This document shows positions 1 to 4,966 of a stretch of DNA of 33,164 nucleotides, piece after piece. Made by a program: the position numbers and the translations under genes. The number at the start of each line of letters is the position of its first letter. Position 1 is the stretch's first letter. The notes below the pieces were generated by a model. The model was not told the DNA's origin, made no database searches, and saw only the letters and a list, made by a program, of their open reading frames with translations. The DNA lies in assembly GCA_020344555.1 (NCBI GenBank), contig CP070827.1, forward strand, positions 2,942,416-2,975,579. Direction: 5' to 3'. This DNA is from Phycisphaerales bacterium. Its GTDB lineage: Bacteria > Planctomycetota > Phycisphaerae > UBA1845.

Positions 1-1953
1 GGTGTTCTGGAAGACGATTGTCCGTCTTGCACCGAGAACAACCACTGCGCCGACGGCGACGCCTGCACCGTTGACACGTGCGACGTTGCCACCGGGGTGT
101 GCTCGAACACTCCGAAGGCGGTCGCTGCGACCGAGTGCTGCGATAATGTGCCCGTGAACCTGGCCGCGGACGTGGGCGGTCTCGGCGCCGTCGTGTCCAA
201 CGTGGACGGGAATGACTGCACGTTTGATGAGTGCACCCCGGCCACTGGATGCGCCGTTGGTGCACAGTGTGGCGTACCCTCCAACCCGCCAATGCCCGCG
301 GGCGATCCCTGCGACGACGGGATCGAGTGCGACACTGTCGATGATCAGTGCGACGGGGCCGGCAACTGCGCCGGTACGAGCATTCTGGCCGTCCCCTGCC
401 CGGGTGGCGATCCGGATTGCGAGGCCAAGCATCCGGCAGCGAGCTGCAACCCGGTCACCGGATTCTGCCGCTGCGTGCCGCCGTCGTTGAACTTCGACGT
501 TCATCCGTCGGACAAGGTCCCGAATAACGCGTGTCACGACGCAGGTGATAAGATCACCGTGGACGTGTTCTTCAAAGACACGCCCGAGGTGGTGTACGGC
601 GGACAGTTTGTCGTTCTGTATGATCCGAGCTGTCTGCAGTTCAGGAGCATTAACCCGGGTGGTGATCCGTACACCTTCGAGATCCACGAGATCGTCGATG
701 AGGCCAACGGCATGATCTTCTACGCCGTGGGTGTCGACCCAATGGGCGGCGTTGGAGTGATGGGCACGGGCATTCTGGCCCAGATCAGCTTTGCCAAGTT
801 GGGTGCCTGCACGGAGTGCATCCTGTGCTTTGGCGGCGAGAACCCGCTGAACACCTACCTGGTCAACAACATTGGTCAGATGGTGGCCGACGTCGAACCC
901 AAATGCAGCGACACGATTATGGCCAACGACGAGCCGTGGCTCGAGTGTCCGGGCGACGCCAAGGTCAACGTCGACTGTGACAAGAACACCGCGATGGTCT
1001 TCTGGGATGCACCGACGTTTGGCAGCTCATGCTATCCTGACGCTGATCTGGTGTGCTGGGGTCAGCACGAAAGCGGCCTGGACATGACTGCTCTGGCAAT
1101 GGGTGGTGGTGGTGAGCATCCGCTTGGCGTCACCAGGTACCACTGTGATGTCACAACCACGGTCTGTGGTCATTCCGTGGGTTGCGACTGGACGGTCACG
1201 GTCAACCATGTCACCACGCTCGACGTGGAGATCCAGTTGTCGCCGATTATTGCCGGTGATCTGCTGCGCTGCATCAAGTTCGAGCTGTACTCGGATTGCG
1301 TGCAATCGCCGTTGGTCGTGGAGAAGGATATCTTCTTCGGCGGTCTGTTCGATCATATCGGTCACTTCACCGACGTGATCAAGATCCCCGGTGCCGGCCA
1401 GTGGCGTTGCATCACGGCCAGAGACCAGTTGCATACACTGCGATCATGTGCATGGCTGGAGTGCATCGACGGTGTCTACTACGCCGTGTTCAAGGGCGAT
1501 CCGTTCTTCGGCGGCAACTGGTTGGTCGGTGGTAACCTCGACGGATTCAAGAAGGACATCCCGACAGCGAGCCACGACGTGATCGACATCTTCGACTTCG
1601 GCACGTTCGTGGTGCAGTGGGCGGTGCGGGCCGATCCGAACACGATCTGTGGCACGCCGGGTCCGAATGCGGACATCAATGGCGACGGTATAGTCGATGC
1701 TCTGGACTTCACGTTCGTCATGATGAACTTCCTGGATCACAGCAAGGACTGCTGTTGCGGTCCGGCGGCGGGCACCATCGTTGGTCGCACCGAGGTCTCC
1801 GTCCGCGAGTTGCGTGAGATGGGTCTTGGTGAACTGGCGGTCGGCGACCTGAATCGCGACGGACTGCTGAACATGGATGACGTCCAGGCGTTCCAGGCCG
1901 GCGATCAGCAGCCCAGGAAGGGCTCGCGGGATCGCGCGGGAATGTCGAGGTAG
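1..1953 (+). CDS. Secreted Cys-rich protein with cohesin-like and dockerin-like regions (5'-truncated)
   Basis: The frame is open from the first base, so the N-terminus lies outside the window and the ATG at 97 is probably internal. Counting from the first codon, residues 1-155 are Cys-rich with repeats of the type CxDGDACTxDTC. Residues about 162-278 resemble a cohesin-like beta-sandwich (YGGQFVVLYDPSCLQF). Residues about 313-402 resemble a HYR/Ig-like module (ECPGDAKVNVDC). Residues about 525-580 hold a dockerin-like segment with an EF-hand loop (DINGDGIVDALDF), and residues 615-632 a second calcium-loop-like stretch (GDLNRDGLLNMDD). Such architectures are typical of large extracellular proteins of Phycisphaerae-like planctomycetes. 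Binding partner and function cannot be told. It ends in an intrinsic terminator, so it is transcriptionally separate from the flagellar genes. Confidence 0.8.
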   Translation, partial: GVLEDDCPSCTENNHCADGDACTVDTCDVATGVCSNTPKAVAATECCDNVPVNLAADVGGLGAVVSNVDGNDCTFDECTPATGCAVGAQCGVPSNPPMPAGDPCDDGIECDTVDDQCDGAGNCAGTSILAVPCPGGDPDCEAKHPAASCNPVTGFCRCVPPSLNFDVHPSDKVPNNACHDAGDKITVDVFFKDTPEVVYGGQFVVLYDPSCLQFRSINPGGDPYTFEIHEIVDEANGMIFYAVGVDPMGGVGVMGTGILAQISFAKLGACTECILCFGGENPLNTYLVNNIGQMVADVEPKCSDTIMANDEPWLECPGDAKVNVDCDKNTAMVFWDAPTFGSSCYPDADLVCWGQHESGLDMTALAMGGGGEHPLGVTRYHCDVTTTVCGHSVGCDWTVTVNHVTTLDVEIQLSPIIAGDLLRCIKFELYSDCVQSPLVVEKDIFFGGLFDHIGHFTDVIKIPGAGQWRCITARDQLHTLRSCAWLECIDGVYYAVFKGDPFFGGNWLVGGNLDGFKKDIPTASHDVIDIFDFGTFVVQWAVRADPNTICGTPGPNADINGDGIVDALDFTFVMMNFLDHSKDCCCGPAAGTIVGRTEVSVRELREMGLGELAVGDLNRDGLLNMDDVQAFQAGDQQPRKGSRDRAGMSR

Positions 1954-1965
1954 GAAGAAGACTCA

Positions 1966-1987
1966 GGTGCGTCACGGGAAACGCACC
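1966..1987. repeat. Short hairpin repeat unit (REP-like)
   Basis: Two 7-base arms, GGTGCGT (1966-1972) and ACGCACC (1981-1987), flank an 8-base loop. The first 18 bases of the unit (1964-1981, CAGGTGCGTCACGGGAAA) occur again exactly at 15439-15456 inside fliK. The unit lies 13 bases after the stop codon of the upstream gene and before its terminator. It looks like a small interspersed palindrome. No mobilising protein is seen. Confidence 0.5.
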
Positions 1988-2033
1988 TTAAACCTAGATC
2001 CGGGAAAGGGTGACTTTTCCTGAGATCGCAGCC

Positions 2034-2080
2034 AAAAGGCGGCGTATGGCCTCGAGACGCCATACGCTGCCTTTTTGTTT
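2034..2080 (+). terminator. Intrinsic terminator of the cohesin/dockerin-like gene
   Basis: The stem GGCGGCGTATGGC pairs with GCCATACGCTGCC around the loop CTCGAGAC, with one G-U pair. It is preceded by AAAA and followed by TTTTT at 2072-2076. Stem strength and T-run are both typical of a rho-independent terminator. Being A-flanked and T-flanked it could work on both strands. Confidence 0.85.
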
Positions 2081-2440
2081 CCCGGGCATGACGTGAACCT
2101 TGAAGGTGGAAGTCCACTGTGGGCGGCAATGACCGGAACAAGGAGCCGAAGGCAAGGGCGTCCACCGTAAGGCGGAGTCTGAAGGGAACCGAAGGCAAAA
2201 CGCGAACTCGACGAGCCGTAATCGGATACCAGGCCCGTCGCGCAGGAGGACGGGCGCCGCGGCGCGTCCTCCTACCCGGTTGCCCGGTTTGCGGCAGGGG
2301 CTATTCAAGCGGGCAAGAGCCGCCGTCCATACTCCTGGATCTGGCGATGGGCGGTTTGCGAACCGGCGTGGGTCAGCCGGTGCCCGGATCGGGTAGCAGG
2401 TCTACAGAACTGGGGAAGAAGGGGCCGTAACACTGAGAAG
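2077..2440 (+). mobile_element. Degraded group II intron fragment (domain I region, class-C-like), no reverse transcriptase
   Basis: The RNA-like sequence carries, in order, the conserved blocks of bacterial group II intron domain I. These are CCCGGGCATG near the 5' end (2081), a GTGG/CCAC stem with loop AAGT (2105-2116), GCCGAAGGCAAGGGCGTCC with CACCGTAAGG after it (about 2145-2172), GTCTGAAGGGAACCGAAGGCA (split here only by reading; about 2178-2198), and CGACGAGCCGTAATCGGATACCAGG. Near the right end, CGGGTAGCAGGTCTACAGAA and AACACTGAGAAG resemble the part that precedes the protein-coding domain IV. No reverse transcriptase, no convincing domain V and no clean 3' end follow. The 5' edge abuts the terminator T-run, the site preference known for class C introns. 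The expected GTGYG 5' terminus reads GTTTC. Recognition is from memory of the family; borders are approximate. Confidence 0.6.
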
Positions 2441-2590
2441 AGGGGCCCACGGATCCGCGCTGCCGATGTGGGTGGGATGCTCTCAGTGCACCTCTTTGCG
2501 GTCAAGCCAGCCGGGGCGATCTGCCGACATCTTCAAGTACTGCGTCAGGAGGATGCTGCGGATCGATTGACCGGGCTCAGGACGGGCACA
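2441..2590 (+). other. Non-coding gap upstream of the TPR gene
   Basis: Together with the hairpin, terminator and intron relic this completes the 637-base gene-free stretch 1954-2590. An open frame extends upstream of 2591 to 2468, but its translation (beginning MGGMLSVHLF) does not look like a natural N-terminus. No convincing -35/-10 or -24/-12 promoter was found here, although the TPR gene should need one. Confidence 0.4.
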
Positions 2591-4966
2591 ATGTCACATT
2601 GGGGAGACTTGCGAAACCGCGCGGCGGGGAAGTGGCAGATGCCGCTTCTTGCGGTGTCGCTCATCTTACTGGCCGGGACCTTTCTGCGCGCTCGGTCCAT
2701 GCCCACCCGACTTCCGTTCCAAGAGGCAGTCGAGCATCTGGAGACACTGACGTCTGGTGGTCTCTATGATAGTGCGATCGAGTTCGGTGATACTCTCTTG
2801 GCCCGCGAGGGGCGTACGGAGGCGGACCGCGCTCCAGTCCACCTACAGCTAGCTCGTGCTCGTTTTGGTGAGGCCCAGAGCCGGCGCATTCGAACCGCCG
2901 ACGTCGGGCGGCAGACCGTCGAGCACTATCGGTATGCAGCGTCACATGCTCAACCGCTTACTGCAGTTGACTTTCTGAACATGGGTCGGGCGTTCGAATG
3001 GCAGGGGCACATTGCAGATGCGCTGCGGAAGTACGAGGAGGCGCTTGATCGAGGCGTTGAGCGCTCCCTGGACCTGCGCAAGCATGTGCTCTCGCTGAAG
3101 ATGAGCTGGGTAGAGACGCCTCCGGGGCGTCTGCTGGAACTCGTTGATGGCTTGCTGTCCGACGCCGGGAGTCGTCGGTTGGACATAGGAATCTGGGCGA
3201 TCGGGCAAAAACTGGAACTCCTGGAGACATTGGGCAGACTCCAGGAAGGCTCAACACTGCTGACCCGCAATCGGGAACGATATCACGCCTCCGATTGGCA
3301 TGATCGGTTTTCGTACCTGGAGGCATGGCTGCTTTATAAGACAGGTCATTTAGACGAAGCCGAGCGCTATTTGCGTACCTTGCGGAACCGGGTGGATAGT
3401 GGGGACGAAGTCTACGCGATGACCGGTTGGCTGCTGGGTCGTGTGGTGATGAGTGATGACGGTCCGCAACGACCGCAGGAGGCGTTGTCGTTCTTTTCCG
3501 ATGTCACAAGGCAGCATCCCGACGGACCTTACGGGGTGGCAAGCCGGATCGGTTCGGCAGAAGCCCTGGCCATGTTGGCGCGTCACGCAGAGGCGATAGA
3601 CGCCTACCGGGCCGCAATCGACGAACTGGACTCGCTGGTGGATCGACGTCTGGTCAACCTGACAGTGTTGCGGGCATCGTTGGCGGTGATGGCCGAGGCT
3701 CAGCGACAAGCGGGTTACCTGCGAGAGGCCGTCGAGTATTCACAACTCGCGGTTGCACTTGTCGATCCGCGGAACGCCGAACAGGCTACGATGTTCCTGC
3801 AGCAACTTGCACAGATACAATCGCTGCTCGCGGCTCATCTGGATGGAGGAGCCACGGCAACGCCCGGACCATCGGAGCGAGTTATTGAAGCCTCGTCGAG
3901 GGAGGCACGTCGGATGTTCGCCGAGGCGGGCTCGACTCACCTGCGGATTGCGCAGCTCAACGCCCTGAACGAGCGAGTCGCAGCCCAAGCGACCTGGCGA
4001 GCGGCCGAGCTGTATGCCCGGGCCGGTAAGCGCGACCACGCCGCGACGCTCTATACGGCGTTTGCAGTGGAGCGCCCCGAACATCCGCTGGTAGCCCGAG
4101 CTTTTCTGCGGGTCGGGCAGCTCCGACAGGTGTCGGGACAGTTGGATGCGGCTGTCAGTGCGTACCGGGAATGCTACCGGCTGTATCCGCGCACGCTCGA
4201 CGGCTCGCGCGTGCTGGTCCCGTTGGCTCAATGTTACCTGGCAATGGGACCCGACTATGAGGGGCTTGCGGAGAAGACGCTGCGCGTGGTATTGGAGGAC
4301 TCGGAGGTCTTCACTCCCCGGGCGCCGGAGTTTGTCGAGGCGTTATTTTTGCTCGGGGACGTGCTCAACCGGCGCGCTGATTTCGAGCATGCGATTGCAA
4401 CCCTGGAAGAGGCGTTGGAGCGCTACCCCGACGATCCGCAAGTATGGCGGGCTCGTTATCTGCTTGCTGATTCATATCGCAAGAGCGGGCTTGCCTTGAA
4501 GGCCGAGATCGCCGACGCCAGGTTCCCCAGCGAAAGCGAACAGATGCGCGCCGACTCGATTGGCCGATTTCAGGCCGCGCAAGCGCTTTACCGCCGGTTG
4601 ATCGCGGAGTATCAGTTCCGCGACCCCGCGGGGCTGAATCGACTCGAGAGGGTGTACCTGCGACATGCCACTCTCTACGAGGCGGACTGCTACTTCGAAA
4701 CGCAGGACTACCGCCGTGCGCTGAAGCTCTATGAAGAAGCGGCTGGGGCATACAGGGACACCTCCAGCGCTCTGGCGGCATATGTCCAGATGATCAACAG
4801 CTATGTGTTCCTAGGTCAGCCCGAGGAAGCAAGAGCGGGGCTGGCTCGCGCCTTGGTGTTGGTGGACTCCATACCCGATGAGAGCTTTGACACTGGGGTG
4901 TCACCGGAAACGCGAGAGGACTGGAAACGATACTTCGAATGGCTGGGCCAGTCCGAGCTGTTCTAG
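2591..4966 (+). CDS. Large TPR-repeat protein with N-terminal membrane anchor, flagellar-locus leader
   Basis: The protein is about 791 residues from the ATG at 2591, preceded by an AGGA-type ribosome site. Residues 17-30 (MPLLAVSLILLAGTF) form one hydrophobic segment after a basic N-terminus, so it is either a signal anchor or an uncleaved signal. The rest is a series of degenerate tetratricopeptide helices, for example DALRKYEEALDRG, EAIDAYRAAIDEL, AVSAYRECYRLYPRT, AIATLEEALERYPDD and RALKLYEEAAGAYRD. TPR arrays usually hold protein partners, and this one would face the periplasm if the N-terminus is an anchor with the tail outside. The next gene starts within 13 bases of its stop, so the two are probably co-transcribed and the protein may have a flagellar role. 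No known flagellar TPR protein is a sure match, and the function is unknown. Confidence 0.75.
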   Translation: MSHWGDLRNRAAGKWQMPLLAVSLILLAGTFLRARSMPTRLPFQEAVEHLETLTSGGLYDSAIEFGDTLLAREGRTEADRAPVHLQLARARFGEAQSRRIRTADVGRQTVEHYRYAASHAQPLTAVDFLNMGRAFEWQGHIADALRKYEEALDRGVERSLDLRKHVLSLKMSWVETPPGRLLELVDGLLSDAGSRRLDIGIWAIGQKLELLETLGRLQEGSTLLTRNRERYHASDWHDRFSYLEAWLLYKTGHLDEAERYLRTLRNRVDSGDEVYAMTGWLLGRVVMSDDGPQRPQEALSFFSDVTRQHPDGPYGVASRIGSAEALAMLARHAEAIDAYRAAIDELDSLVDRRLVNLTVLRASLAVMAEAQRQAGYLREAVEYSQLAVALVDPRNAEQATMFLQQLAQIQSLLAAHLDGGATATPGPSERVIEASSREARRMFAEAGSTHLRIAQLNALNERVAAQATWRAAELYARAGKRDHAATLYTAFAVERPEHPLVARAFLRVGQLRQVSGQLDAAVSAYRECYRLYPRTLDGSRVLVPLAQCYLAMGPDYEGLAEKTLRVVLEDSEVFTPRAPEFVEALFLLGDVLNRRADFEHAIATLEEALERYPDDPQVWRARYLLADSYRKSGLALKAEIADARFPSESEQMRADSIGRFQAAQALYRRLIAEYQFRDPAGLNRLERVYLRHATLYEADCYFETQDYRRALKLYEEAAGAYRDTSSALAAYVQMINSYVFLGQPEEARAGLARALVLVDSIPDESFDTGVSPETREDWKRYFEWLGQSELF

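Follow-up and report, generated by a model that had tools for sequence, protein, structure and literature searches.

A very probable remnant of a class C group II intron, internally deleted, behind a terminator in a Phycisphaerales genome

The locus and the homology at both intron ends

The window analyzed here is a stretch of 33,164 nt from a Phycisphaerales bacterium (assembly GCA_020344555.1, contig CP070827.1), corresponding to positions 2,942,416-2,975,579 of a single-contig genome of 5.25 Mb (G000). It contains, between the end of a secreted-protein gene and the leader of a TPR-repeat protein gene, a segment of 204 nt on the + strand (2077-2280), which is very probably what remains, inactive and with both ends kept, of a class C (IIC) group II intron after an internal deletion (Table 1). 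The segment begins right after the T-run of a terminator-type hairpin, with the sequence GTTTCCCGGGCATG, and about 90% of the element has been lost relative to a full class C intron.

Table 1. Features at the relic site (window coordinates)
Feature	Position	Strand	Basis
3' part of the secreted-protein gene (Pfam Cohesin, Dockerin_1), 5' flanking gene	1..1953	+	Pfam; 82% over 1432 nt, including the terminator, vs G002:C107 (blastn)
Conserved leader in the 3' untranslated region, before the terminator	1966..2033	+	Repeated at two other places of G000 and one of G002
Terminator-type hairpin with T-run 2072-2076, the target site and 5' exon	2035..2076	+	Sequence, fold
Intron 5' end (5' part of domain I, first 165 nt, begins GTTTC)	2077..2241	+	nt 6-165 vs G066 intron 80%, nt 6-153 vs L029 82%; RF02001 31 bits
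Deletion junction	2242..2244	+	Alignment to the G066 intron breaks off after relic nt 165 and continues from nt 169
Domain VI hairpin and intron 3' end, CTACCCGGT here vs CTACCCGAT in relatives	2245..2280	+	Covariance model R1; G066 alignment
3' exon with the leader of the TPR gene, outside the intron	2281..2590	+	83% over 824 nt vs intron-free G002:C1, from window 2280
TPR-repeat protein gene before the flagellar block, 3' flanking gene, start codon uncertain	2591..4966	+	Pfam; G002 orthologue 86% at the amino acid level over 791

The comparison that is decisive for the identity of the relic is that with a full-length intron of 1,970 nt (GTGCGCCAGGCATG to CTACCCGAT, with an open frame of 512 codons) found in G066, which belongs to the same family as G000. 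The reverse transcriptase (RT) part of this intron is closest, among solved structures, to the RT of GsI-IIC (E 2.6e-135), and NCBIfam TIGR04416 (407 bits) classifies it as a group II RT/maturase; domain I of the intron reaches 136 bits against the Rfam family RF02001, which together fix the class of the intron as C. Nucleotides 6-165 of the relic align with nucleotides 6-165 of the G066 intron at 80% identity (145 bits), and nucleotides 169-202 with nucleotides 1935-1968 at 91% (31/34 nt, 49.1 bits); among 500 dinucleotide-shuffled versions of the relic, used as a control, the highest score was 29.2 bits. What is missing at the junction amounts to some 1.77 kb, i.e., nucleotides 166-1934 of the G066 intron, including the RT and domain V.

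Descent from a class C intron is thus indicated by collinear homology to a full-length member at both ends, by a position directly 3' of a terminator hairpin and in the same orientation, and by the absence of the segment from the matching flanks, with matching boundaries, in G002 (a genome of the same genus as G000, 97% complete), where these flanks lie on different contigs and do not form one intact empty site. The initial annotation of this DNA had proposed, from the letters alone, a dead or minimal class C relic with domain I sequence from 2077, the first base after the T-run, and with neither RT nor domain V, and all of this is borne out, also by the comparison with an intact intron of a related genome that it had called for.

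The 3' end of the element, which the initial annotation had overlooked in reading only a domain I fragment, is also recovered by a covariance model (R1) that describes domain VI together with the 3' end and was built from seven relatives with the window excluded. It scores 35 bits at 2241-2281 (E 6.5e-9; the next-best match in the window has 9.1 bits and E 1.6), and the site is the sole reported match at E<=1 in the whole of G000 (E 1.0e-6; 150 of 1,476 first-look candidates scored). The span of 2034-2440 originally given to the element was too wide: 2034-2076 belongs to the hairpin region, and 2281-2440 is 3' flanking sequence, collinear with G002, which has no intron there.

The hairpin itself has 16 pairs (2035-2050 with 2059-2074), present in both the minimum-energy and the centroid RNA structure. 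A simple terminator scan did not list a hairpin at 2035-2076, probably because the stem pairs into the T-run, and the terminator call at this place rests on the sequence and the fold.

Loss of function and the 5' end

The search for domain V (RF00029) returned no match in the window and, over the whole of G000, none at the relic site (150 of 310 candidates scored), while seven other places of this genome were reported by the same search, four of them over the cut-off. There is likewise no RVT_1 match at the site, all eight of those in G000 lying outside the window; five of these RTs share 33-36% identity over the aligned part with the class C RT of locus L058, and the other three frames lacked the motifs used as a filter for this comparison. 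No class C RT was found in G000 (estimated completeness 71%), in which seven matches to the class C RT of G066 are only 32-41% identical. On these searches, the relic is without two components of a functional class C intron, namely domain V and an RT/maturase encoded in cis or elsewhere in the genome, and both of its termini deviate, with GTTTC in place of GUGYG at the 5' end and, at 2279-2280, GT where the relatives read AT and a 3' AY is usual.

Given the loss of the RT and of the catalytic domain V, the relic should neither splice nor move by itself, and nothing points to a present function. The initial annotation was correct in reading GTTTC at the 5' end, although GTTTC is weak evidence of death, since some planctomycete copies with mapped insertion boundaries start with GTTTG; GTTTC alone does not show that the copy is dead, whereas the internal deletion does.

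These variant ends were sought in a collection of one genome per species (84,980 species), in which near kin of the window may have been left out, with a pattern limited to GTGCG, GTGTG, GTTCG or GTTTG. The scan gave 42 stretches (27 with GTGTG, 10 with GTGCG and 5 with GTTTG), and all five GTTTG stretches come from Planctomycetota records. A planctomycete class C set that starts with GUUUG rather than GUGYG comprises L118, L121, L125, L127 and L129, together with copies in G062, G015, G050 and G004; L129 and L121 coincide with the G015 and G064 copies.

In G062, which belongs to another genus of the family, one of the introns (copy b) sits in a palindromic repeat whose intron-free copies define the boundary. 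In all nine repeat copies whose sequence was printed, of the 13 loci given, the T-run continues with TTCAAC and lacks GTTTG, which identifies GTTTG as the own 5' end of the G062 intron and AT as its 3' end; the 5' exon of copy b joined to the 3' exon of copy e gives the intron-free repeat sequence, except for one C. The assignment of GTTTG to the exon, with terminators ending in TTTGTTTG, is rejected for G062 by these intron-free copies.

The palindromic repeat (~110 bp, TAACAGCCCGTTGAA ... TTCAACGGGCTGTTA) encloses an inner terminator-like hairpin, is represented by L146 and L149-L161 in G031 and G064, and serves as an intron target; dozens of copies occur among the at least 41 matches listed for each of these two genomes.

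A tree of 40 rows, computed with the first five bases removed and with duplicates and rows of less than 120 nt dropped, left 23 of its 37 inner forks open. It joins the window copy and L029, a second copy of G000 that begins with GTCTT, as sisters (support 99/96), and the nearest rows to the window by tree path are L029 and the GTGCG row L060. Nine of the ten GTTTG rows fall in one group of 12 rows, apart from this pair, and membership of the relic in a GUUUG sublineage is rejected on this basis. The GTTTG label needs four changes on the tree, and a single origin is not supported. Given this, the GTTTC of the relic may be a decayed GTGCG or a separate change, and the odd 5' ends of both the window copy and L029 may reflect decay.

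Related copies and the exchange of flanks

Besides the window copy, G000 contains two class C fragments above the RF02001 cut-off (61.9 and 52.7 bits, of five places at E<=10), namely L028 at 1.63 Mb and L029 at 1.91 Mb. The latter and the relic have 82% identity over 148 nt (nt 6-153), and the similarity extends through the terminator and the leader ahead of it; L029 thereby has its 5' flank in common with the window, and it has its 3' flank in common with L028. L028 (3464-3857) and L029 (4348-4742) contain paralogous genes with 90% identity over 395 nt, each of which lies several hundred bases downstream of a class C domain I fragment. Three related introns of another class also occur in G000 (L030, L031 and L032), with domain V over the Rfam cut-off and open RT frames of 460-468 codons whose proteins are 82-86% identical, that of L032 including masked letters; by eye, L030 and L031 start with GTGCG, and these introns were possibly active in the recent past.

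The leader and terminator ahead of the relic (1966-2076) form an element of their own, which occurs at three places of G000 (the window, L029 and L039, at G000:1212714-1212835) and at one of G002 (L056, on G002:C107), and which no Rfam family matches in the window. A diverged form, recognized by eye, follows a similar secreted-protein gene in G021 (L057).

The comparison with G002 places a break in gene order at the relic. Similarity of the left block (secreted-protein gene, leader and terminator) to G002:C107 stops at window position 2080, and that of the right block to G002:C1 resumes at 2280, where the upstream gene and terminator of G002 differ, so that the relic occupies the gap between two blocks found on separate contigs, with no intron at either counterpart site. 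On G002:C107, a different gene follows the terminator, and this gene is found in G000 at 1.21 Mb, behind the intron-free leader and terminator copy L039. In G002, the TPR gene is preceded at ~4.5 kb by a gene judged radical-SAM-like from its sequence alone; in G000, this gene lies ~0.6 kb from L029 and 1.03 Mb from the window. The initial annotation had assigned to the segment the role of a buffer between the secreted-protein gene and the flagellar module, for which there is no evidence; what is shown at this site is the break itself.

Exchange of flanks is encountered again between G062 and G031, which belong to one genus. In G031, the sequence that lies 5' of copy a in G062 runs directly into that found 3' of copy b, and the sequence 5' of copy b into that 3' of copy e; one side of each join was identified by blastn and the other by eye.

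From these observations, the history of the site may be reconstructed as an insertion later followed by a deletion. Reverse splicing into the hairpin and T-run target, as described for class C introns, would have inserted the intron, and a subsequent internal deletion would have removed ~1.77 kb of it. Recombination at copies of the intron, or at the repeated terminator ahead of them, would also have contributed to joining the two flanks seen here, and it would be the simplest account of the flank exchange.

Several points weigh against the remnant as read here or against the part given to it in the break. The Rfam search that had been proposed as a check did yield a domain I hit, given that the only match at E<=10 in 1700-3200 is RF02001 (group-II-D1D4-3, 2161-2327, 31.0 bits, E 4.2e-4), but this is one bit below the gathering score of 32, and the whole window returns no match at the gathering thresholds. 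Sub-threshold RF02001 matches are moreover common, being present in 11 of 14 control genomes (above the cut-off in two of the 14), which makes the score weak evidence when taken alone. With regard to the break, the G002 counterpart of the left flank is 82% identical in DNA and may be a paralogue, and it is known from a fetched stretch of G002:C107, so that the break is firmest on its right side. The repeated terminator also occurs without an intron (L039; G002:C107), and the break may accordingly stem from the terminator element; either G000 or G002 may hold the older gene order, and the orientations of the two sister copies and the gene order of G002 misfit one simple inversion.

The RF02001 match was rejected as a measure of the extent of the relic, because it overshoots the 3' end (2280) by 47 nt. 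A single inversion between the window copy and L029 was rejected as well, on the orientations relative to G002.

Mini-introns and competing readings

Related short introns occur in G062, where five copies of ~320 nt (L087, L088, L089, L092 and L093) have, by eye, a common internal deletion. These mini-introns keep the 5' ~160 nt, a short stretch, and domains V and VI, each of them behind a different hairpin and T-run. Copy b measures 323 nt; its alignment to the G066 intron covers nucleotides 7-159 and 1863-1970 of the latter and leaves 56 nucleotides in between unaligned. No class C RT was found in G062 (completeness 89%), and the five copies look like a non-autonomous family.

Other short copies are found among the relatives, such as L196 (G020:C426), of ~277 nt, which has an internal deletion and both intron ends. 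The 5' breakpoints of the window copy (2241), of G062 copy b and of a truncated G004 copy (L061/L086) fall at about nt 159-166, and they are too few for a hot spot. Within the family, the domain I query finds 23 places in 14 of 51 genomes at E<=1e-5, and the domain VI model, run with stricter filters and up to 128 candidates scored per genome, finds 27 places in 12 of the 51 at E<=1e-4. A special retention of 5' fragments in the family is not claimed, considering that the first searches targeted 5' ends and that the domain VI model then found its 27 places. A search of 72,556 plasmid records with the relic gave matches in 17, none covering more than 32% of the query; most are short stretches of domain I in lactobacilli.

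These short copies bring up another origin for the stub in the window, which might have arrived as a non-autonomous mini-intron mobilized in trans, as in G062, instead of being deleted after insertion. The five G062 copies with their common deletion behind different hairpins, of which copy b lacks nt ~160-1862 of the G066 frame except for the 56 unaligned nucleotides, would agree with such an origin, as would the two ends of the G020 copy and the proximity of the 5' breakpoints. The G062 copies, however, keep domain V, which the window copy does not, and the latter stands outside the tree group of the G062 copies, in a genome where a class C RT was not found. A query of 1956-2260 against 60 genomes also aligned across the junction at no other place, an observation that is weak given the 16 nt of query behind the junction. 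Transport in trans is accordingly considered improbable for the window copy, and deletion after insertion is preferred.

Two further readings would deny that the segment is a dead intron, and both are given next to no weight. A structured RNA of another class, or a flagellar operon leader that resembles domain I, would agree with the strong fold of 2034-2440 (z -2.75, none of 100 shuffles as low), although the folded stretch includes the terminator hairpin. Such an RNA is already refuted by the match of both ends, in the right order, to an RT-bearing intron, and it is opposed also by the absence of the segment from the orthologous leader of G002 and of any other Rfam family at E<=10 in 1700-3200. 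A live intron, splicing or regulating between the secreted-protein gene and the flagellar genes, might be suggested by the location between two gene blocks and by the presence of both ends, but domain V, the rest of domain I, domains II-IV and the RT are gone, and the GTTTC and GT ends deviate from GUGYG...AY, which makes a live element extremely improbable.

A broader proposal would take the both-ended class C stubs (5' ~160 nt plus domain VI) of Phycisphaerae-type planctomycetes as a non-autonomous layer comparable to miniature inverted-repeat transposable elements (MITE-like), which would spread in trans behind terminators, include one sublineage with a 5' GUUUG, and exchange, through recombination among themselves, the genes located behind terminators, with the window relic as one such junction. 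On the present sequences, this generalization is unlikely, if somewhat less so than transport in trans of the window copy. Taken as a single case, the remnant is an ordinary fossil and a specimen of a known kind, whose interest resides in boundaries that can be fixed within a few bases against an intron-free sister and in a gene-order break that falls on the stub. The flank exchanges of G000 and G062 and this relic together suggest a possible role of class C introns as portable homology, through which genes upstream of terminators would be paired anew with the operons downstream of them. The five alike-deleted mini-introns of G062 are a better lead than the relic itself.

Class C introns, of which B.h.I1 is an example, offer the closest comparison. 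In its 5' part (165 nt) and in domain VI, the relic matches a full-length intron whose RT is closest to that of GsI-IIC (PDB 6ar1), and its site behind a terminator hairpin agrees with this group, while the absence of the RT and domain V and the GTTTC/GT ends set it apart from class C introns such as GsI-IIC. Insertion at terminators is described for this class (PMC4424553, PMC3522654), introns without an open reading frame (ORF) are described as rare in bacteria, with GUGYG...AY as the usual boundary (PMC4424553), and exceptional ends are illustrated by UHB.I2, whose intron-encoded protein is of class CL1 and which has UUGCG...GU (PMC7923331). The same source mentions a proposal in which group IIC-attC introns aid gene cassette formation via homologous recombination between copies (PMC7923331). 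Among the matches listed for group II introns together with Planctomycet, the titles and the opening lines of the abstracts report no such relics.

Finally, two known systems bear on the deleted copies. The Enterobacteriales harbor group II intron fragments regarded as the remains of past acquisitions, two of them from the class C intron So.gl.I1 (PMC3522654), and the relic resembles these as a dead class C fragment; it differs in its host and in combining a terminator with a gene-order break, a combination not seen in the portion of that account available here. In Thermosynechococcus elongatus, TeI3n has a large internal deletion, and 17 ORF-less introns with one common deletion have proliferated (PMC2882425). 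The G062 mini-introns may have proliferated in a similar manner, with one common deletion of their own, whereas the window copy, unlike the TeI3 introns, for which the exon-binding site EBS2 and the En domain are described in the part of that source considered, is also without domain V.
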